Virus record (IMG/VR): IMGVR_UViG_3300009432_000046
Coordinates: 1-21,190 of that record
Source of the DNA: a virus
Reading direction: 5' to 3' (one strand)
DNA length: 21,190 nucleotides
A program made the translations under genes and the position numbers. The notes beneath the pieces are model-generated. The model worked only from the letters and a program-made list of their open reading frames with translations, was not told the origin of the DNA and did no database searches. Positions 4,901 to 20,757 of the stretch are shown piece by piece. The stretch's first letter is position 1; each line of letters begins with the position of its first letter.

Positions 4901-5106
4901 GCTATTTCAACTAATGAAGCCCCTTCTTCTCTAAAGGCTCCAAAAGAGTCTGTGACCCCAAAGTCATCAGGTTTATCTATAAAGGCATTAACATTGGGGT
5001 CAAATACCTTACCGTTCTCTGTGGCTTGTCTCATAACCATTGAGGGGTCTTTAGGTGCCACTGAGTCTGAAGTAAAGACCGAAGTAAATTCTTCTGTTGT
5101 TTCCAT
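1948..5106 (-). CDS. Internal virion protein, T7 gp16-like
   Basis: Large protein of 1052 residues in the position of T7 gp16, between the gp15-like gene and the tail fibre. In T7, gp16 is packed in the head and ejected to form the channel through the cell envelope. Several stretches could insert in membrane: about residues 138-175 (Ala/Gly/Leu-rich), a hydrophobic stretch around 690-720, and residues 919-937 and 958-978 near the C-terminus. The rest is largely polar and predicted helical. T7 gp16 is about 1318 residues and starts with a lytic transglycosylase domain. Here the first 130 residues are acidic and show no ESxxxxxA/GLMQ-type transglycosylase motif, so peptidoglycan cleavage must come from elsewhere or be absent. 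The ATG at 5106 follows AAGGAATTTAAACA. The assignment rests on position, size and C-terminal character. Confidence 0.8.
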
Positions 5107-11054: not shown

Positions 11055-11093
11055 AAAAAAAAGGGCAGAGAGAAATTAATCTCCCCACCCTTT
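11055..11093 (-). terminator. Rho-independent terminator after the capsid gene
   Basis: On the minus strand, AAAGGG pairs with CCCTTT and an inner GGGGAGA pairs with TCTCTCT, with some G-U pairs. The stem is about 14 bp, closed by a short TTAATT loop and followed by a run of eight T. It lies directly after the capsid stop, the same place as the T7 late terminator T-phi, which leaks to allow lower expression of tail genes. Confidence 0.92.
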
Positions 11094-11111
11094 AGAGTAG
11101 GCTGTTACTGT

Positions 11112-12128
11112 TTACACAGCATTCAACGAAATGGCGCAAGCAGGGCGTAAGATGTTATGACCCATAGCGTACTTAGCTACCATTAACGTACCTTGACGTT
11201 CGATCTGATACTCAGACTCGACACCTAAATCTAACAACTTAACTGTTGCTGCGGCATCCTGACTGAAGATTAAACCCCGTAATTTAGAGTAGTCGCCACG
11301 ATAGGCCGCAGTACGTGCGCTAGTTAACGGCTCAACGTCAGTAGAACTTGAAGTTTGGTCTGTGGCTGGTAGATGATTACTCATCATAATCTTAACGCCA
11401 CCGACTTGAGGGACGACACCCGCTGCTACAGAACCTTCACCGCCAACATCACGGTTTAACCATGCAGCGTTGGCAACACTGGGAACATTCAATAAAGCGT
11501 AATACTGAGAAGGGGGTAGTACACAAACCTTTTCACCGCCTATGTCTTTCTTATCAAACTCTTCAAGAGCCTTATAGATAGCTGCAACGATCTTAGCACC
11601 TTCAAGTGCATGGGCTTGTGTAGTACCGATGTTGACGTTAGCGGTATAAATTTCATCATCAAATTTAGTTCCAAAAGCGGCTGTAGCTTTGGTAGCGTTG
11701 GTTATGCTTGCAGCTTTCGCAATGATACGCGCTACGTTGCGGTCAGATACGTTAGCTAATGCGCTGCCCGACTCTTTAGAGTAAATGCTACGCACATCAT
11801 AGTGATTCATAGCTTCGTCAATCTTTGCAATGAATTGAGTGCTAATTAATAAATCATCGACAGTTACAGTGCGTTCGCCCTTCTTGATTTGATCTGCTTC
11901 AATCATAGTGCCAGGAATGTGATACTTTGCAGAACCAGTGCCAGTTAGAGGGAAGGATGCAGACTTACCATTAGAAATGGTACGGGTGCGGTGTAGAGGC
12001 ATGAAGACGTTCTTTTCTTCGTATGCAGTGAGGACTTCACCAGCATATAGCTTAAGGAATAATGAACGATCATCTCCAGAAGCGTTAGTTTGGCCCAAAC
12101 GTGAGGGTGATTGATGTGGTAATGCCAT
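11112..12128 (-). CDS. Major capsid protein (T7 gp10-like)
   Basis: Major head protein of 338 residues, near T7 gp10A (345). The N-terminal region SGDDRSLFLKLYAGEVLTAY and the following FMPLHRTRTISNGKSASFP are typical of T7-like capsid proteins with the HK97 fold. Other family-like segments are AKIDEAMNHYDVRS and AKYAMGHNILRP near the C-terminus. The gene has its own upstream leader of 224 bases, by far the longest between head genes here. A terminator lies on either side, so it appears to be a separately transcribed unit, consistent with the large amount of capsid protein needed. A weak ribosome site (AGGT, 10 bases upstream) precedes the ATG. Confidence 0.96.
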   Translation of the reverse strand: MALPHQSPSRLGQTNASGDDRSLFLKLYAGEVLTAYEEKNVFMPLHRTRTISNGKSASFPLTGTGSAKYHIPGTMIEADQIKKGERTVTVDDLLISTQFIAKIDEAMNHYDVRSIYSKESGSALANVSDRNVARIIAKAASITNATKATAAFGTKFDDEIYTANVNIGTTQAHALEGAKIVAAIYKALEEFDKKDIGGEKVCVLPPSQYYALLNVPSVANAAWLNRDVGGEGSVAAGVVPQVGGVKIMMSNHLPATDQTSSSTDVEPLTSARTAAYRGDYSKLRGLIFSQDAAATVKLLDLGVESEYQIERQGTLMVAKYAMGHNILRPACAISLNAV

Positions 12129-12145
12129 GTTATATGTACCTAAAT

Positions 12146-12167
12146 GTGTATTAAAAGTGTATTAAAG
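12146..12167. repeat. Two adjacent 11-base direct repeats in the capsid leader
   Basis: gtgtattaaa occurs at 12146-12155 and again at 12157-12166. The start-to-start distance is 11 bases, about one helical turn, just upstream of the capsid ATG. It could be a protein-binding site or chance AT-rich sequence. Confidence 0.5.
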
Positions 12168-12210
12168 TTGTTGAGTGTTTCGATGTTCAGACTCAGCTAC
12201 TTGTCACTTC

Positions 12211-12245
12211 CTTTCCCATAGAGATTGTCCTCCGCAGAGGGTCAA
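12211..12245 (-). promoter_or_regulatory. Candidate promoter for the capsid gene
   Basis: In the leader between terminator and capsid gene, the minus strand carries TTGACC (12240-12245), a 17-base spacer, and TCTATG (12217-12222), followed by GGGAAAG. TTGACC resembles a sigma-70 -35 box, but TCTATG is a weak -10. Alternatively, TCTATGGGAAAG resembles the start region of T7-type promoters (CTATAGGGAGA). A small hairpin, CCTC-TGCG-GAGG (12229-12240), lies in the spacer. T7 also has a strong promoter immediately before its capsid gene. I found no second copy by eye, so the assignment is tentative. Confidence 0.35.
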
Positions 12246-12290
12246 TAGATACTTGGAGCAAGTTAGTTGCATTGTTTTGTTTATTGAAAC

Positions 12291-12328
12291 GAAAAAGCCC
12301 ACCAGAGGCCGTTTAGTGCTTGGTGGGT
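12291..12328 (-). terminator. Rho-independent terminator after the scaffold gene
   Basis: On the minus strand CCCACCA (12321-12327) pairs with TGGTGGG (12298-12304) across a 16-base loop, then CTTTTT follows. It sits about 25 bases after the scaffold stop codon and before the capsid leader. The T run is present only on the minus strand, so it acts in the direction of the phage genes. Confidence 0.85.
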
Positions 12329-12352
12329 GTAAAGGTTGCGGAGACAGAGAAC

Positions 12353-13111
12353 CTACAGGACGTTACTTCTTGATAATTTAGAAGCAACCTGCTGTCGGTA
12401 TGCAGAGTCAGTGCTGTACCTTGGGTCACGCATTGCTGCGGTCAGTTGGGCAGCAGAATCAAAGACCCCACCTGTTACGGATTTAGTCTCGCCCATGACG
12501 AGTGATGGTTCACTCCCGTTAACAGAACGGTACTGTGCTTGTAGACCCTGAATAGCTAGATTTGCTGATTCTATGTTTCCACTGTTTACTGCATTGTTAA
12601 AGGCATCAATGGATGCTTCATTTAAACTTTCAGAAGCCCAAGTAACCATATTTTCATACGCTTCTTGGCCTCCTACCTGTTCAAAGGCTTCTTGTTGCAT
12701 CTGTTCAGCCACCGCCATTTGACCATCTATAAATTGGTCAACCATAGAACGGGGAATACCAGCTTCTATTAAAGAATCGTAAGAAGCTTCAGTTAGTCCA
12801 CCTAGCTCTGCGAACTCTTGGGATAAGGAATCAAAATCAATACCTTCCTCTTCAAGCCCTTCAACTATGTTTTCTAACTCTTCTTCTTCTAACTCTTCTT
12901 CTTCTAACTCTTCTTCTTCGTCTTGAGAGCCTAGCTTCTGTTCTAGGGATTCATAAGCTTGCGCCATATCCTCAACACTGTTGAACTTCTCAGGTAGCCA
13001 TTCAGGGCGGTCGGACACATCAGGATTCTCAAGACCTTCGGCCTTTTCTAACATATCTAATGTGTGCTGACCGTCTTCAACGGTTTCTTCGTATGTGTTA
13101 ACTGTATCCAT
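12353..13111 (-). CDS. Capsid assembly scaffolding protein (T7 gp9-like)
   Basis: Scaffold protein of 252 residues that directs capsid assembly and is then released; T7 gp9 is 307. It is very acidic in its first half, with a (EEEEL) repeat near residues 64-79 and predicted helices throughout. Segments such as GRPEWLPEKF-like (DRPEWLPEKFNSVEDMAQAY) are typical of podovirus scaffolds, as is its place directly before the capsid gene. I chose the ATG at 13111 because GGAGA lies 9 bases upstream. The frame extends to an ATG at 13168, but that extension overlaps the end of the upstream gene and has no ribosome site. The C-terminal region is more basic (QQVASKLSRSNVL), as expected for the capsid-binding end. 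Confidence 0.9.
   Translation of the reverse strand: MDTVNTYEETVEDGQHTLDMLEKAEGLENPDVSDRPEWLPEKFNSVEDMAQAYESLEQKLGSQDEEEELEEEELEEEELENIVEGLEEEGIDFDSLSQEFAELGGLTEASYDSLIEAGIPRSMVDQFIDGQMAVAEQMQQEAFEQVGGQEAYENMVTWASESLNEASIDAFNNAVNSGNIESANLAIQGLQAQYRSVNGSEPSLVMGETKSVTGGVFDSAAQLTAAMRDPRYSTDSAYRQQVASKLSRSNVL
12874..12918 (-). repeat. Three perfect 15-base tandem repeats coding poly-glutamate
   Basis: The unit ctaactcttcttctt (plus strand) is repeated three times without change, coding EEEEL-type repeats in the scaffold protein. The perfect copies suggest recent slippage expansion. Confidence 0.93.
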
Positions 13112-13120
13112 TTTTAACTG

Positions 13121-13125
13121 TCTCC
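13121..13125 (-). promoter_or_regulatory. Ribosome binding site deciding the scaffold start
   Basis: GGAGA on the minus strand lies 9 bases before the ATG at 13111, supporting that start over the longer frame beginning at 13168. Confidence 0.75.
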
Positions 13126-13136
13126 AAACAGATAAT

Positions 13137-14468
13137 TTATTTAGTCTTTGTTGAGTAAGACTTACCATTGAATTTAAAGGTTTTTTTACCTTCTTCTTTA
13201 GCAGCCTTAAAAGCTGTCCCGAAAGACGTTGCTTTCTTACCTGTCTTAGCGTTTAAGTGTCCACGTAGGTCTTTACTACCTGACTTTTTAACGTCATCTT
13301 TAGTTGCCGTTGAGTAAGACTTACCATTCCAAGCAAACTTTGACTTACCAGCTTTCCTAGCTGTCCTAAATGCAGTGCCAAAAGAACTTGTTGTAGCTGC
13401 TGGCTTCTTAGTTTCTATTTCTTTAAAACCAGAAAATAACTTACCGCCTTTAGGTGGTGCGTCAGCAGAAGCGGCTAATTTCTCCACTGTTACAGCCGCC
13501 AGTAGAGGGCTTAACACCCTCCCAAACTTAGCAAACGTACTTAATTTAGAAGCGAGGGTACTGGCTTTACTACCTTTTATAACCGTCTTAGTAGAGCCAC
13601 CAATGCGTTCACCAGCAGGGCCGACAGTTGATGAGCCTTTAATAATTTTACGCTTAGGTGTCGCTGTCTTAGCTGTCGCTGTCTTATTGCCAGTACCAAA
13701 CTTAGGGCCACCAGTGCGCCTAACGTCAACTTTAGTCTTCGTAGGGGGCTTACCGCGAGAAGCGTTAACTTTCTTACGTCTGATCTTGGCATTAGTAGAA
13801 GGTTTTGATTCAGCACTTAATGTTTTAACTGTCGGCTTCTTAGCCTCTACCTTAGTAGCCTTAACTACGCTAGGTTTAACACGCGAGTCTTTAATAGACT
13901 GTAGTAGCTTGCCCTTAACACTGGTTGGTGTGACAGGCTTACTACGCGCACCCTTTCTTAAAGAAGGCTTCAGCTTCTTAGTAGCTACTTTAGGCTTGGG
14001 TTTGGGCTTAGTCCGACCATCCTTAAGAGAGCGTGTTAACGCTTTAGTCGCTTTAGGAGTCTCAGGTTTATTACGTAAAGATTTTAAGGACGTAGTTAGT
14101 TTGGAAGGTGCTTTTTTTTTAACTGTTGGCTTCTTAGCAGCTACCTTTTTGGTAGTAGGCTTTTTAGCTTCGGGCTTCTTAGCAGCTACCTTTTTGGTAG
14201 TAGGCTTTTTAGCTTCAGGCTTCTTAGCAGCTACCTTTTTAGTAGGTGGTTTACCCCTTGTGCTTTTGACCTTAACCTTAGCCTTAACCTCTTCTTTTGC
14301 TACGGTCTTACCTTTGCTATTAAACTTAGGTGTTTTCTGTTTTTTCTTAATATCTGCTAGTTGTTTTTCTAAAGCTGTAGCATCAATTTCGGCTTTCTTT
14401 TTTGAAGCAATTTCTGCTTCTATCTTAGCAATCAACTGTTCGTCTTCTGTACTAAATGCTAGTGCCAT
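13137..14468 (-). CDS. Lysine-rich histone H1-like repeat protein between portal and scaffold
   Basis: Protein of 443 residues with no counterpart at this place in T7. Residues 1-47 are a helical, charged N-terminus (coiled-coil like). Residues 76-119 carry a 15-residue repeat (TKKVAAKKPEAKKPT), the Ala-Lys-Pro composition of histone H1 tails. Residues 124-206 hold four 20-22-residue repeats of the type LxxS[LI][KR]xxRxKP. SRGKPPTK-like segments occur at 69-77 and 236-244. A short hydrophobic helix lies at about 310-335. The C-terminus has two copies of SFGTAF+xA+xxGKxxFxxNGKSYST (362-387 and 415-440). The start overlaps the portal stop (TAATG) and has an AAGGTGA site. The strong positive charge suggests binding to DNA or to the acidic scaffold protein encoded next. 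Function is not known to me; a DNA-condensing or minor virion protein is an inference. Confidence 0.85.
   Translation of the reverse strand: MALAFSTEDEQLIAKIEAEIASKKKAEIDATALEKQLADIKKKQKTPKFNSKGKTVAKEEVKAKVKVKSTRGKPPTKKVAAKKPEAKKPTTKKVAAKKPEAKKPTTKKVAAKKPTVKKKAPSKLTTSLKSLRNKPETPKATKALTRSLKDGRTKPKPKPKVATKKLKPSLRKGARSKPVTPTSVKGKLLQSIKDSRVKPSVVKATKVEAKKPTVKTLSAESKPSTNAKIRRKKVNASRGKPPTKTKVDVRRTGGPKFGTGNKTATAKTATPKRKIIKGSSTVGPAGERIGGSTKTVIKGSKASTLASKLSTFAKFGRVLSPLLAAVTVEKLAASADAPPKGGKLFSGFKEIETKKPAATTSSFGTAFRTARKAGKSKFAWNGKSYSTATKDDVKKSGSKDLRGHLNAKTGKKATSFGTAFKAAKEEGKKTFKFNGKSYSTKTK
13146..13385 (-). repeat. Two copies of a FGTAF...NGKSYST domain
   Basis: Residues 362-388 and 415-441 of the H1-like protein align over about 26 positions, with SFGTAF, GK, F and NGKSYST conserved. 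They are separated by a 26-residue linker. Confidence 0.9.
13851..14099 (-). repeat. Four degenerate 20-22-residue basic repeats
   Basis: Repeats begin at residues 124, 144, 166 and 188 of the H1-like protein. The consensus is L-x-x-S-[LI]-[KR], then two or three residues, then R-x-K-P. The DNA is diverged, so this is an older expansion than the 45-base repeat beside it. Confidence 0.75.
14112..14243 (-). repeat. 45-base tandem repeat coding TKKVAAKKPEAKKPT
   Basis: Two full copies plus a partial third (residues 76-90, 91-105 and 106-119). The copies are nearly identical at DNA level, indicating recent tandem duplication. Confidence 0.92.
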
Positions 14469-16015
14469 TACTGTTCACCTTGTCCTTGTTTCATCATGCC
14501 TTGGGCAATCGGGCCTGTAGCTTTCTCAGCCATAGAAGCCATTAGTTGCTGTTGCTGTTGCTGTCGCGCTTGCTTCTGTTCCTGAGCTTTCTGTTCTGGT
14601 GATTTCACCAAGCCAGTAGTATCAATTCCTAAAGACGCTCCAAGTCGATCAATGTAATCGTCTACGTTTAACTCACGTGCAAGCACTTCATTACCCAATG
14701 GGGCTAACATCTGAAGTAACTGAGAGAGTTTGTTAAGGTCTTGACCACGGCCTAAAGCTTCCATACCAGTAACGATCTGAGGCTTAAGGGTGTTGTCGGG
14801 GAACTTAGGCATCTTGCCGCTTTTCTCCATACGGGAGAGTAGTAGCTTAACTAAGGGGTATTGAAACTCTTGGGAAAGAATTGAATATACCCCACCTAAT
14901 GCTGCCTCAAGTTCTTGAGCCATATAGCGTACCTCTTCAGCAGTAACACGTTCAGCTTTACGCTGTACTGAGCTATTCATTAGGAATGAAAAGGCCAGCC
15001 GTTCAGTAATCTCACGTGCCGTATCCTGTGCTACTCGGAAGTCATTAAACTTCTGAAGTTGTAGTACAGATACATCGTTGGCATCACCTGCTGCTATACC
15101 ACCATTAGGTGTCTGAGCAATTACTTTTGCTTTAGTAGTACCATTTGGTCGTACCAGAAATAGAACCTTAGCGGCTGCGGCTGAACCTTCGACAATAGCC
15201 CTTGTTAGAGTCTCTAGTGAACTTAAGTCACCTATGAACTCTTCAACATAACCACGTCCATAAGATTCACCATCAATACGCACCATACGTAGTGACATAA
15301 AGGGTGTTTTATCTAGGGGGAACGAGCCGACAGAGTTAGGTATAACCTGACCCTCAACTTCTTGGTGTACTTCCCACTTCTTACTAATACGCTTAACGCT
15401 TGTGTAAAGGTCAACGGACTTGAGTTGTGAGTCGCCTGTTGGTTTGGTCAGTAAATCTTGGACTTCTTTAGGAAGCATAAGAGGACTAACGGTTTCTTTG
15501 GTAATAATCTCTAAGACATTACCCATCGCGTCACGTTGACATACGTAACGGTCTAAACGAAATACACGAACACCCCCATCTTTAGGCATGTGGACTAAAA
15601 CATTACCTGAAACGATAAGTTGCTTTAGAGCCTCAAACACTGGGACACGGATTGCTGTAGCTTCAACTTCTTGCATGGCAGCGCGTTCTATACGTGAGAG
15701 TGCTTCTTCTACTTTACCCCTAGCACCTTCTCCACCCGATAGACTTTGAAGGTCAAAGTCATCCATAGTCAAACGGAAGAAAGGAGCATTAGGTGGGAGT
15801 AAGGTCATTAATAACTTAGAACTTAGGTTATTAACACCACGCGCACCAATAGATTGAAATGGCGTAGAGTATGTAGATGAACCTGTATGACCTTCGGGGG
15901 GCATGAGAGTTGGTATGGTTAATACGGCTGCTTCTCTTGCCCTGCTTAAAAAAGGTGTACGGTCACTTTCGAGTTGTGTATATCGTTTAGCTACTGCTCC
16001 TGTGTTTGGTAGCAT
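14468..16015 (-). CDS. Portal (head-tail connector) protein, T7 gp8-like
   Basis: Portal protein of 515 residues (T7 gp8 is 536), forming the dodecameric ring at the head vertex through which DNA is packaged and released. Typical features are the N-terminal YTQLESDRTPFLSRAREAA segment, followed by TLMPPEG and FQSIGARGVNNLSSKLLMTL. There is also an RMVRIDGESYGRGYVEEF block and AERVTAEEVRYMAQELE toward the C-terminus. The tail of the protein is glutamine-rich, with a run of six Gln, as is common in this family. The gene follows two small basic proteins and is followed, by one-base overlap, by the H1-like gene; in T7 the scaffold follows directly. The start at 16015 has an AAGAGAA-type site. Identification is firm. 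Confidence 0.96.
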   Translation of the reverse strand: MLPNTGAVAKRYTQLESDRTPFLSRAREAAVLTIPTLMPPEGHTGSSTYSTPFQSIGARGVNNLSSKLLMTLLPPNAPFFRLTMDDFDLQSLSGGEGARGKVEEALSRIERAAMQEVEATAIRVPVFEALKQLIVSGNVLVHMPKDGGVRVFRLDRYVCQRDAMGNVLEIITKETVSPLMLPKEVQDLLTKPTGDSQLKSVDLYTSVKRISKKWEVHQEVEGQVIPNSVGSFPLDKTPFMSLRMVRIDGESYGRGYVEEFIGDLSSLETLTRAIVEGSAAAAKVLFLVRPNGTTKAKVIAQTPNGGIAAGDANDVSVLQLQKFNDFRVAQDTAREITERLAFSFLMNSSVQRKAERVTAEEVRYMAQELEAALGGVYSILSQEFQYPLVKLLLSRMEKSGKMPKFPDNTLKPQIVTGMEALGRGQDLNKLSQLLQMLAPLGNEVLARELNVDDYIDRLGASLGIDTTGLVKSPEQKAQEQKQARQQQQQQLMASMAEKATGPIAQGMMKQGQGEQ

Positions 16016-17289: not shown

Positions 17290-17302
17290 AAGGGTTTTAC
17301 TG

Positions 17303-17337
17303 TAACGGTACGTTAATTCGGAACGCTGTATTTAGCG
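17303..17337. promoter_or_regulatory. Two small hairpins in the gap before the virion genes
   Basis: In the short region without a gene (17290-17358) there are TAACG-(3)-CGTTA at 17303-17315 and CGCT-(6)-AGCG at 17324-17337. Neither is followed by a T run, so they are not terminators. A promoter for the virion genes would be expected here, but I see no convincing -35/-10 or T7-type promoter. Confidence 0.3.
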
Positions 17338-17358
17338 ATAATTACGTCTACTTAATAC

Positions 17359-17508
17359 TCATTCTTCCCTTTCTTCTTTATACATTGACAAGGCTTCTTC
17401 AAACCCATCCCACTTAGCTACACCGCATGTTGTCAGACAGGTTAGAAACTCAGAGTCCCGTTCAATCGTCTTAAAGTAATTTTCATCCACTTCAATTAAT
17501 CTTCCCAT
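17359..17508 (-). CDS. Small acidic protein of unknown function (49 residues)
   Basis: Read directly from the sequence. It begins MGRLIEVDENYFKTI, has FLTCLTTCGV in the middle, WDGFEEAL toward the end, and finishes MYKEEREE. A GAGG lies 6 bases before the ATG, which is good support for such a short gene. Short acidic phage proteins with a WDGY/F-EA segment are familiar to me as a type, but no function is known. It overlaps the preceding 33-residue gene by 13 bases. Confidence 0.65.
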   Translation of the reverse strand: MGRLIEVDENYFKTIERDSEFLTCLTTCGVAKWDGFEEALSMYKEEREE

Positions 17509-17597
17509 ATTGTGCCTCGTTGGTATAACTGAATAGCTGTATTTAGATCACAGTCGAAACCTTCCATGATCTCTTCAAACAAAGTAATAAACATCAT
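17496..17597 (-). CDS. Tiny protein of unknown function (33 residues)
   Basis: Read directly from the sequence: starts MMFITLFEEIMEGFDCD, then LNTAIQLYQRGTIWED. GAGG, which overlaps the stop codon of the reductase gene, lies 5 bases before the first ATG, so translation could be coupled to the reductase. It overlaps the next small gene by 13 bases. It is short enough that chance cannot be excluded. Confidence 0.45.
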   Translation of the reverse strand: MMFITLFEEIMEGFDCDLNTAIQLYQRGTIWED

Positions 17598-17604
17598 ATA
17601 AACC

Positions 17605-19509
17605 TCACACTAGGTCAACGATTTCACAAGAGTCACCAGAACAAGCTAACGTCTGAGAACTAATCGTAGTATCTTCAATTTCGTAGTCCGATAGCTTTGA
17701 CCAATCAATAGCCTTGGGCATATTGCCTAAGAACTTCTCATACACTTCCTGAGTACATTGTTGGTAAGGGGCTTGTTGGTAGATGTGTTCAGAGTACGGT
17801 AAGAAGCTTACGCCACTCATTTCATCAAAGTTCTTGTAGACATAAGCACCTACCTCTAACCACTCGTCTGCTAAGACGTTAATAGTCACTGAGGGCTTGT
17901 GTTCACAATAATGACGTTGATATGCAAGCCAAGTGTCTAGTTGCTGAATAGCCGTTGTGTTCTCTGTAAGAACTGCCTGTTCAGGTGACTTCTGAGGGAA
18001 GCTAAACACCACTGTAGTATCAGGTTGATGGGCGCAAGGCTCCCAAGGAATCCCCTGATCTTTCATAAACTGAGTAAGGGGGTCGTTGAACGCACCACGT
18101 ACTGTCCGAATGTAGTATTCGCTGTGACGCGCATGGATTCCACTAGCAGAGTTAACTAGCTGACTGACTGTGCCACTAGGTTTGACTGCTGTGATTGCTG
18201 TACTCACTGTAATGCCTAACTTACCTGCCCACTCTTTGTTAACTTCTACTGATACGGCACGAAGACGTTCTAGTAGTGCAGGTAACTTAGGGTTAGCTGT
18301 GGTTGTTAGGGGGTTATCCATAATGCCAGTTAGACTTACACCTAAAAGACGTTCTTCGTTAGTGTTATCCTGCCAAACTTGACGCAGATATGGGAACTTA
18401 GTGTAGGTAGCTTGGAGAGTCCCTAGGATGGTAGCTACTGTGATCTTACGCTCAAGGTCTTGCTCAGTATCACCCGAACGAATCACGACTTCAGTAAGAT
18501 TACAGAATTGGTATGGTCTTAGTATTATCTCGCTGCAAGGGTTTGTTCCAAACTCATAGGTGGCATCACGCCTACCATTTTTAGCTGCTTGGTTCTGTGC
18601 AGCCTGTCGGTTAAAGATGCCTCGCTCACCTGTACCTGACTCAACTAGACTTAACCACTCTCGCATGAATGAGGTGGAGTCTGGCTTACTGGTGTAGGCT
18701 ACTGAGTTGTTCGCTAAGTTACGCTGTCCGTTGGTTTCCCAATACGCACCAGATTTAGCATGGCGCATACGGTCATCACTAAGATTTGATAGGCTAATCA
18801 TGGCTGATCTACGTACACCGCCAACAACTACAACCTCACCAATCTTACACATAATGTCATGGCATTGGAGGCTAGTTAGTTTCTCACCTGAAGCTTCTTT
18901 AAACTTACTAATCACAAACTGAAACAAGTCAACCAAAGGTGCAGGGCCACTAGCACGACCACCGAAAGTCTTAAGCTTTGCACCCGCAGGTCGAACCTGC
19001 GTTACGTCCCACTTAGGTATGAAACCTCTATACAAGGAAAGGATTAATGTACGTAGTGAGTATGCCCAACCTTCCTTGCTGTCAGGCACTACGATTCTCT
19101 CATCTAGGTTGATGAGGTTCATAGGAACTTCTGGTAACTTGCTAACGTACTGACGTTCAACAGAAAAACCCACACCTGTGCCGCAGAGTAAAATGAACAT
19201 GGCCTCATCAAAGCTGCGAATATCATCGACAGGTAAGTACGAACAGTTATAACCAGCCGTGTTATCCCGATCAAAGGCTTTGCCTGAACTCATCATGGCT
19301 CTCATAGAGGGCATCACGTCTAGGTTATATATTGCCTCACGCAATGCAAAGACTGTTACATCATCCTTGATCTTGGGTAGCACTAAATTATCTACATAAC
19401 GATCAACAGTTTCGGCCCAATTTTCTCTACGATTTTCTGAATCTAGCCATTTGGCATAGCGACTTGTGTGGATAAATGCTTGGTAGTCGTTGGGGAAGTA
19501 ATTGTTCAT
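17605..19509 (-). CDS. Class II (B12-dependent) ribonucleoside triphosphate reductase
   Basis: Reduces ribonucleoside triphosphates to deoxyribonucleotides using adenosylcobalamin. Numbering from the upstream ATG at 19521: C93 (GYNCSY), the thiyl-radical cysteine C329 with E331 in TNPCSEI, and C340 (QFCNL) form the active site. VGGVRRSAMISL (233-244), NNSVAY (271-276) and AVKPSGTV (445-452) are family blocks. A C-terminal CSGDSC pair (C627/C632) is the reducing shuttle. All match the monomeric Lactobacillus leichmannii enzyme in pattern (recalled), which is about 739 residues; this one is about 634, so loops are shorter. I chose the ATG at 19509 because it overlaps the upstream stop as ATGA and has AGGA 12 bases before it. 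The ATG at 19521 directly abuts that AGGA. It lies after the exonuclease gene, so host DNA breakdown and nucleotide supply are encoded together. Confidence 0.93.
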   Translation of the reverse strand: MNNYFPNDYQAFIHTSRYAKWLDSENRRENWAETVDRYVDNLVLPKIKDDVTVFALREAIYNLDVMPSMRAMMSSGKAFDRDNTAGYNCSYLPVDDIRSFDEAMFILLCGTGVGFSVERQYVSKLPEVPMNLINLDERIVVPDSKEGWAYSLRTLILSLYRGFIPKWDVTQVRPAGAKLKTFGGRASGPAPLVDLFQFVISKFKEASGEKLTSLQCHDIMCKIGEVVVVGGVRRSAMISLSNLSDDRMRHAKSGAYWETNGQRNLANNSVAYTSKPDSTSFMREWLSLVESGTGERGIFNRQAAQNQAAKNGRRDATYEFGTNPCSEIILRPYQFCNLTEVVIRSGDTEQDLERKITVATILGTLQATYTKFPYLRQVWQDNTNEERLLGVSLTGIMDNPLTTTANPKLPALLERLRAVSVEVNKEWAGKLGITVSTAITAVKPSGTVSQLVNSASGIHARHSEYYIRTVRGAFNDPLTQFMKDQGIPWEPCAHQPDTTVVFSFPQKSPEQAVLTENTTAIQQLDTWLAYQRHYCEHKPSVTINVLADEWLEVGAYVYKNFDEMSGVSFLPYSEHIYQQAPYQQCTQEVYEKFLGNMPKAIDWSKLSDYEIEDTTISSQTLACSGDSCEIVDLV

Positions 19510-19745
19510 GCTTGGCGGCATTCCTGTTCTAAGTCTTGAATTAATTTATTGATGTAATAGCGGCACTTCAGTAGGTCTTGCATCGGTGTGGCTTTGTGAT
19601 TGTGTCGGGTTAGGTACTTAATGACGTTACCCTCGCAAAAGTTCATCTCATGGGCGCGTATGTAATCAATAGGCTCTATAGATGCGGTGGTGTAATGAGG
19701 TGGTGTGTTTATAAGGTCAACAGTAGGCTCAATGAGTTTCTTCAT
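19506..19745 (-). CDS. DUF3310 family protein
   Basis: Protein of 79 residues with the pattern of the DUF3310 family, common in tailed phages: NTPPHY near the N-terminus, IEPIDYI, then FCEGNVIKYLTRH and a helical KATPMQDLLKCRYYINKLI end. Some members are annotated as nucleotide kinase-like or related to T7 gp1.7, but no catalytic residues can be assigned here. It overlaps the exonuclease stop (ATGA) and its own stop overlaps the reductase start (ATGA), so the three genes form a translationally coupled chain. Being between a nuclease and a reductase suggests a part in nucleotide metabolism (inference). Confidence 0.85.
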   Translation of the reverse strand: MKKLIEPTVDLINTPPHYTTASIEPIDYIRAHEMNFCEGNVIKYLTRHNHKATPMQDLLKCRYYINKLIQDLEQECRQA

Positions 19746-20488
19746 TTGGATGGTTCCTTATTGATAGGTGGTTGCCACAAAATAGGGGCATTGTCCCAAA
19801 GCTCTGCTATGAGTATTCGGGCCATACGTGCGTTCAGTAGGGCGGCTGCTTCGTCACCTTTGTAAGCTTTTAGTACACCTTCCCAAAGACTCTCAGGGGT
19901 GCCTCGGTGCTTATCAATTAGCTTACGGGCAGTCACTTCACCGACACCTTTAACACCGTAATAGCCGTCTGTTGGGTCGCCTTTGAGTGCTTGGGTAATG
20001 AAGTGTTCGTAAGCTTCTTCTTCAGAGATATGGACAACTTCACCGTCTTTCCAGATACGTGCATTGGGTATGGTCAGCATGTCTTTATCATCGGAGACAA
20101 TGAGGTACTTGTCAGGGTCTTGGGTTGCTAAGATTCCCATAACATCATCAGCTTCAATGTTGTCTAGGATGACGTGGCTGTACTGTTCTTTAACGAAGTC
20201 AAGAAGCGTGTAGAGACATAGAGGTCTGCGGGTAGTCTTACGGTTAGCTTTATACTCAGGGTTAATATCTTTGCGATAGTTTGTTGGGCTAGAGATAGCC
20301 ACTACCACTTCCTTTAACCCTGTCTCTGCTTTTATTTGCTCGACTTTAGATACAAAGCCCTTGTTAACGTCATCTTCGTAGCAGTGGAGAGTCCATAAAC
20401 CGTCACCCCAGTGAATAGGTTTTTCGAGTGCTGCGGCTATACGGTACGCTATTAGATCACCGTCTAATAGTAAGGTGTTACGGGACAT
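19742..20488 (-). CDS. 5'-3' exonuclease (T7 gp6-like, FEN superfamily)
   Basis: Exonuclease of 248 residues (T7 gp6 is 300) that would remove RNA primers and degrade host DNA. Metal-binding acidic residues are in place: D9 and D11 (LLLDGDLIAYR), E112/D114/D115 (NIEADDVMGIL), D133/D134/D136 (VSDDKDML), and D171/D174 (GDPTDGYYG). The helix-hairpin-helix DNA contact GVKGVGEVTARKLI follows at 178-191. The basic arch-like segment NPEYKANRKTTRRP (77-90) is typical of the family. The ATG at 20488 follows TTGGAGAGTCCCT. All catalytic positions look intact. Confidence 0.94.
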   Translation of the reverse strand: MSRNTLLLDGDLIAYRIAAALEKPIHWGDGLWTLHCYEDDVNKGFVSKVEQIKAETGLKEVVVAISSPTNYRKDINPEYKANRKTTRRPLCLYTLLDFVKEQYSHVILDNIEADDVMGILATQDPDKYLIVSDDKDMLTIPNARIWKDGEVVHISEEEAYEHFITQALKGDPTDGYYGVKGVGEVTARKLIDKHRGTPESLWEGVLKAYKGDEAAALLNARMARILIAELWDNAPILWQPPINKEPSK

Positions 20489-20502: not shown

Positions 20503-20757
20503 TTAGTGTACTAATTTAAGTTCAAACTGCTTTTTCTCAGCTTCTATCTCTAAGTCTTCCCTGTACAAAGTGTTGGCAAGCTCTAAATAGTGCATAAGAA
20601 TTTCTTCGTTATTTGCTATATCTTGGACTGCGGCATATATCGCTGCCCCATACGCGCTTTGCTCGTTTGTAGGTTCACCGTCACATGCACCTTTGAATTT
20701 TACTGACGTACATTCACTATTAAATGTTATGATTAGCGATAGGCTTCCTGTTTCCAT
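20503..20757 (-). CDS. Protein of unknown function (84 residues)
   Basis: Not recognised. It starts METGSLSLIITFNS, a possible beta strand, then has a polar region with two cysteines, a helix-like AYGAAIYAAVQDIANN, and a charged helical end (YLELANTLYREDLEIEAEKKQFELKL). I chose the ATG at 20757 because AGGAG lies 8 bases upstream. A GTG three codons earlier (20766) overlaps that AGGAG and cannot use it. It starts within the 3' end of the preceding gene (38-base overlap) and ends 14 bases before the exonuclease gene. Confidence 0.75.
   Translation of the reverse strand: METGSLSLIITFNSECTSVKFKGACDGEPTNEQSAYGAAIYAAVQDIANNEEILMHYLELANTLYREDLEIEAEKKQFELKLVH

Follow-up and report, generated by a model that had tools for sequence, protein, structure and literature searches.

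Genomic Context of the Capsid Gene

The window, meaning the whole stretch of DNA analyzed here, is a 21,190-base IMG/VR record whose minus strand holds the late half of a T7-like genome. This strand encodes nucleotide metabolism, the portal, a lysine-rich open reading frame (ORF), the scaffold, the capsid, the tail tubes, the internal proteins, and the fibre. With the exception of the capsid, the late gene names (portal, scaffold, tail tubes, internal proteins, fibre) are presumed from gene order and from synteny with T7. The portal gene (14468-16015) is named on this basis, and the scaffold gene (12353-13168), which lies between portal and capsid and upstream of the latter, takes the place of an annotated scaffolding protein in isolates with the same gene order. 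The capsid gene (11112-12128) encodes a 338-residue major capsid protein of the T7 gp10 family, whose nearest counterparts come from LUZ100, RHEph01, P-SCSP2, and marine podophages, with 39-45% identity among the 40 matches listed. Phage records with a related capsid number 1355. These genes and all parts of the capsid unit described below are on the minus strand.

Three other features of the window stand apart from the capsid unit. A 443-residue lysine-rich ORF (13137-14468) lies between portal and scaffold and contains PTTKKVAAKKPEAKK repeats that recall histone H1-like tails. ORFs with long collagen-like Gly-X-Y repeats occupy the fibre region (3-1948), and 315 nt without a gene in the ORF set (17290-17604) separate a short ORF from the large ORF at 17605-19521.

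Predicted Terminators on Both Sides of the Capsid Gene

The sequence-only reading had proposed that the capsid gene stands alone between two terminators, and this arrangement is borne out by a hairpin and T-run at each site, by comparison with shuffled sequence, and by conservation of both elements in relatives. T1 (12292-12327), located after the scaffold gene, in the gap that precedes the capsid ATG, consists of the hairpin CCCACCA/TGGTGGG and a T-run, and folds at -13.7 kcal/mol (z -2.25), which 6 of 200 shuffles equaled. T2 (11060-11093), after the capsid gene, is a strong hairpin of 14 pairs that none of 200 shuffles equaled; the 66 nt folded around it reach -24.8 kcal/mol, a small second hairpin included. 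Both have the G+C hairpin followed by a T-run that is typical of an intrinsic terminator.

Relatives for the terminator scan were found via their capsid protein, and only distinct regions were counted. A T1-type terminator was detected by a separate scan in 44 of 56 distinct upstream regions, vs. 1 of 56 when shuffled, although 42 is the safer count because two of the matches (loci L034 and L035) are hairpins within the scaffold gene. Downstream, a T2-type terminator is found in 53 of 54 regions (shuffled, 8 of 54 at a lax cut-off and none at a strict one). A capsid gene between terminators is not unique to the window phage, since LUZ100, in which transcript ends have been mapped by ONT-cappable-seq, has annotated terminators T14 and T15 before the capsid gene and T16 after it (excerpts of PMC10134795). 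Between the scaffold stop and T1, the short stretch TGTCTC(C) (12340-12346) is kept in 32 of 56 distinct relatives' regions.

A Conserved Hairpin in the Capsid Leader

A leader of 224 bases had been placed between T1 and the capsid ATG; this number is the whole minus-strand gap from the scaffold stop to the ATG, and the leader that does follow T1 measures 163 nt (12291-12129). Judging from comparative sequence analysis, it is mainly a conserved folded RNA that covers most of its length. The leader begins with a 39-nt A/U-rich spacer from T1 to P1 (12253-12291), a possible single-copy phage promoter or RNase site, followed by the 5′ strand of P1, GUAUCUA (12246-12252), the closing helix of a junction. 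The core hairpin P2 (12223-12243) reads GA-C-CCUC(UGCG)GAGG-ACAA-UC and is built from a clamp (12243-12242/12224-12223), a stem (12240-12237/12232-12229), a tetraloop (12236-12233) of the YNMG class, and the bulge ACAA (12228-12225). The general plan of P2 is thus a clamp, a C facing an A[CU]AA bulge, a covarying stem, and a YNMG tetraloop. Downstream are P3 (12211-12205/12159-12153), an inner helix (12202-12199/12168-12165), and P4 (12195-12191/12176-12172), which together span 12153-12211, and finally the 3′ strand of P1, UAGGUAC (12136-12142), which holds the Shine-Dalgarno-like AGG of the capsid gene (12141-12139). A conserved upstream short reading frame was also considered and is ruled out, as its ATG (12219-12217) is missing in most close relatives.

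Alignment of the leader across relatives, which had been suggested as a check, reveals a shared block before the capsid start, GR-C-stem-UGCG-stem-ACAA-YC, whose stems vary on both sides. Among 47 distinct sequences picked by a hairpin finder, 94.6% of P2 cells are paired, compared to 77.3% in shuffles, and 61 cells are doubly changed, compared to 17.9. The finder was run on 45 of 50, 74 of 80, and 80 of 80 loci from three sets; L100 and L166 yielded no start, and L243 and L294 were too short. At a score of at least 13 it detects the hairpin in 32 of 44 Syn5-like, 14 of 28 LUZ100-close, 45 of 45 LUZ100-far, and 78 of 78 HTVC021P-like leaders, and in 4 of 975 shuffles.

Because the hairpin finder selects for pairing, the unbiased count of P2 comes from an anchored, pairing-agnostic pattern, NN-CC-N3-N4-N3-G-A[CU]AA-NN, which leaves pairing and loop unconstrained and was sought within 150 nt upstream of the capsid ATG. 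This pattern is present in 241 of 289 leaders, never twice, and in 41 distinct forms. Full pairing at five positions outside the search pattern is seen in 38 of the 41 forms, and YNMG-class loops (UGCG, UACG, UGAG, UAAG, CACG) likewise in 38 of 41. Outside these leaders the loci served as a control (3.86 Mb, both strands searched); here 172 distinct anchored matches include one that is fully paired and none with a YNMG loop. The 48 leaders without an anchored match comprise longer-stem or expanded-P2 variants (such as L027, L030, and LUZ100) as well as true absences. Furthermore, the cells of the anchored forms include four G-U and no A-C combinations, as expected of an RNA transcribed from the coding strand.

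The element is also specific to one gene. A blind exact scan for GRCCCTCTGCGGAGGACAAYC returned at least 119 stretches in viral contigs and no match in cellular genomes (genome_contigs). Of these stretches 80 were examined, and 78 are followed on the same strand, after 62-124 nt, by the start of a T7-type capsid gene; the remaining two are undecidable, as the contig ends within 98 nt. Compensatory helix changes beyond chance and a constant context before one gene, both seen here, are features of a structured cis-regulatory RNA.

Searches against Rfam 15 gave no family at gathering score in the window, and 18 related loci gave tRNA only (in two isolates). The best of the weak matches to the leader, caiA and L20_leader, are far below gathering. 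Ribosomal-protein leaders and other cis-regulatory leaders in Rfam are alike in that a very abundant structural protein has a structured 5′ leader in cis, with the Shine-Dalgarno in or near a helix, but none of them matches the phage leaders at gathering score. The P2 leader element appears to be a new family of structured cis-regulatory RNA without a match in Rfam 15. Searches of the open-licence literature listed no paper recognizable as a description of such a capsid-leader element. A catalogue by Fremin and others from 2023 is said to hold over ten thousand candidate structured viral RNAs and might include this element. In its excerpted text, a 2010 survey of 104 candidate RNAs (PMC2864571) does not mention 'capsid'.

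The Three-Way Junction and the Shine-Dalgarno

RNAalifold, applied to 23 full leaders, returned a three-way junction unprompted. P2 sits in this junction in the window's clade and in a larger sister group, with the closing helix P1 predicted to pair the Shine-Dalgarno. In alignment A2, in which the clamp and P4 were extended by hand and which draws on leaders outside the window clade, 93.7% of the junction cells are paired, 45 are doubly changed (vs. 14.3 in shuffles), and the covariation score is 0.270 (vs. at most 0.103 for slid versions). Here P1 pairs UUACCUUU with AAAGGUAA, the latter containing the Shine-Dalgarno, and both-side changes occur in three of the eight P1 pairs. The counterparts of P3, the inner helix, and P4 were found de novo and covary in A2.

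In the window itself, the positions of these helices come from its own fold. Model R2, built without the window clade, matches the window leader at E 1.1e-9; of 25 sources searched at E up to 1, it missed L080, L082, and L083. As the R2 match ends at 12149, before the 3′ strand of P1, the window's P1 (12252-12246/12142-12136) rests on the single-sequence fold and on near-invariance within its own clade. The window leader shows no unusual folding stability (z -1.32; 19 of 200 shuffles equally good). P1 is not seen by eye in RHEph01, P-SCSP2, or HTVC021P, and thus the helix that holds the Shine-Dalgarno is not universal. In LUZ100-type leaders inspected by eye (L157, L082, L154), P2 lies inside a longer local stem, for example CACACAA/UUGUGUG, and the P1 letters CCUU/CCUC are free for pairing with the Shine-Dalgarno.

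Distribution of P2 Among Phages

Phages that bear P2 infect a broad range of hosts: Rhizobium (RHEph01), picocyanobacteria (P-SCSP2, P-SCSP1d, Syn5, P-SSP7), roseobacters (CRP-113, CRP-118), SAR11 (HTVC021P), Bordetella (BB8), and Pseudomonas (LUZ100, with an expanded P2 recognized by eye); MedDCM S45-C18 carries it as well. Model R1 was trained on a set that contains most of these phages; it found one P2 copy in 13 of 15 records and two in none. The records it missed are those of LUZ100 and RHEph01, in both of which P2 is visible by eye. R1 also produced two weak second matches, in the loci L076 (E 0.088) and L060 (E 3.1). The P2 of P-SSP7, with the loop CAAG and the bulge AUAC, was missed by R1 but recognized by eye and by the hairpin finder (score 11). 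In the gap before the capsid gene of the same phage, a Glutamine-II riboswitch scores above gathering (L093, 20522-20575).

P2 is absent from the examined leaders of T7, gh-1, SP6, and phiKMV. Capsid-proximal promoters are present in T7 (22904), gh-1 (phi13), and phiKMV (24121-24157), and presumably in SP6, where the site is assigned by consensus. T7 resembles the window phage in having the capsid gene as its own unit with a hairpin in the phi10 leader and a terminator behind (T-phi). It differs in that its promoter lies 63 nt before the capsid ATG, that P2 is missing, and that the annotation shows no terminator between genes 9 and 10. The L135-L142 clade has no recognizable P2 either, and is not known to have such a promoter.

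A 42-row capsid tree places T7 and gh-1 beside HTVC021P (91/92), inside the P2-bearing phages, and the L135 clade within the Syn5 group, so that the P2 label needs three changes; SP6 and phiKMV form very long branches of unsure placement. This fits an old P2 element that was lost more than once, and P2 may instead have been gained at the base of the tree.

In some lineages, elements related to tRNA lie just upstream of P2. This position is taken by a tRNA-Asn in LUZ100 and RHEph01, and among 33 distinct Syn5-like leaders 16 have a tRNA-like T-arm there (for instance L092 at 19842-19882, L093 at 20620-20690, and L097-L127). No such T-arm occurs in the window's group (0 of 60), in HTVC021P-like leaders (0 of 48), or in control windows (0 of 205). 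The best Rfam match of the Syn5 T-arm is the tRNA-like mascRNA family, below gathering. Syn5 has P2 before its capsid gene like the window phage, with a UACG loop and an extended clamp, but a tRNA-like T-arm, not a terminator, is found just upstream.

A Proposed Role in Capsid Output

The leader RNA element probably sets the amount of shell protein made. We assign a probability of about 60% to the reading that this ancient RNA acts in cis and controls capsid output post-transcriptionally, through a protected 5′ end and a gated ribosome site. A discrete capsid mRNA would be split from the upstream message at T1, or in some other lineages at the tRNA or tRNA-like element. P2 would mark and protect the 5′ end of this mRNA and gate the access of ribosomes to it, and T2 would end it, with the outcome that capsid protein is produced in excess over its neighbors with no private promoter. 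Protection of the 5′ end together with gated ribosome access is favored because features at which RNA can be ended or cut (the terminator, the tRNA-Asn, and the T-arm) often lie just upstream of P2. In the four P2-less isolates that were checked, a promoter stands immediately in front of the capsid gene. P2 thus probably fulfils the same task post-transcriptionally, and the T7 lineage appears to have exchanged the P2 RNA for such a promoter.

A wider history can be sketched more tentatively, at somewhat less than even odds. Here the RNA would be ancient, inherited with the capsid gene across most sampled Autographiviridae, and would do at the RNA level the work of the private phi10 promoter of T7, with long transcripts yielding a separate, protected, highly translated capsid mRNA; it would have been lost when the T7 line gained its promoter.

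Phages with one or two promoters need hundreds of capsid copies for each head, yet keep portal and tail proteins low although all are encoded on the same transcript. For the question of how they do so, P2 offers a concrete, mutable target that is common to phages of cyanobacteria, SAR11, roseobacters, Rhizobium, Pseudomonas, and Bordetella. In metagenomes, P2 can serve as a new RNA marker of uncultivated T7-like phages, and its leader is a possible strong expression leader.

Sequestration of the Shine-Dalgarno could also signal repression rather than boosting. The main rival, which we consider unlikely, is a translational operator: unassembled capsid protein, or else the scaffold protein or a host factor, would bind P2, stabilize the closed junction, and stop translation once shell protein is in excess. 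P2 is found only in cis to the capsid gene, its internal loop and tetraloop are fixed in sequence while the stems covary, as would be the case for a protein site, and the Shine-Dalgarno is predicted to be paired in P1. However, P1 is missing in several lineages, and the loss of P2 in the T7 line alongside the arrival of a promoter suggests boosting over repression.

A still less probable account is that transcription units alone matter, with two terminators insulating the capsid gene and the leader fold acting as a passive stabilizer. The conservation of T1 and T2 agrees with this, as do hairpins near the capsid gene in the leaders of T7, SP6, and gh-1 (R10), yet a passive stabilizer has no need for a fixed C/A[CU]AA internal loop and YNMG loop across phages of unrelated hosts, and the restriction to one gene is left unexplained.

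Promoters and the Capsid Leader

The sequence-only reading had also seen a candidate promoter in the leader and, through it, stricter separate control of the capsid gene. The first claim finds no support, as the letters concerned fall in conserved structured RNA, and neither does the second, given a leader that is mainly folded RNA and a P2 in Syn5 about 15 kb from the nearest promoter. The minus strand of the leader has no sigma-70-like site. As a T7-like promoter, CTCTATGGGAAAGG was rejected: it has no second copy in the window at up to three mismatches and varies among relatives, where its counterparts (TTTACGGG, TTTAAGGG, TTTCAGGG, and CTTAGAGAAAAGG) lie inside the conserved RNA structure. 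Neither these letters nor the spacer before P1 recur in the window or its relatives, whereas promoters of the T7 class are a short motif repeated before several genes. A repeated promoter in the T1-P1 spacer was likewise rejected, since across 21 loci including the window the best other copy matches 16-18 of 27 letters, as do reversed-sequence controls, with L037 (20 of 27) as the one exception. A single-copy phage promoter in the 39 nt between T1 and P1 is possible.

A promoter of the phage single-subunit RNA polymerase, in P2 or in the 39-nt spacer before it, is the most doubtful of the alternatives, for although CTATGGGAAAGG is weakly like the T7-class consensus, T1 upstream would otherwise starve the capsid gene, and T7, phiKMV, and gh-1 have promoters at this place, each record has a single P2, none of the 21 loci repeats the spacer, the covariation of P2 is that of a hairpin, with an RNA-type tetraloop and the G-U over A-C bias noted above, Syn5 has no promoter near P2, and the nearest annotated promoter of LUZ100 is elsewhere. 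Syn5 is reported, in the part of its description drawn on here, with only two promoters; their sequences are at 4929 and 44797, and its P2 is at about 19.9 kb. The promoter phi7 of LUZ100 (20586-20635) is annotated about 0.6 kb ahead of the capsid gene, with the tRNA-Asn in between. The excerpted LUZ100 report makes no mention of a leader RNA structure, and its authors describe a local phage promoter for the capsid gene with a strong terminator behind it (PMC10134795). As LUZ100 has both a local promoter and P2, the two are not strictly exclusive.
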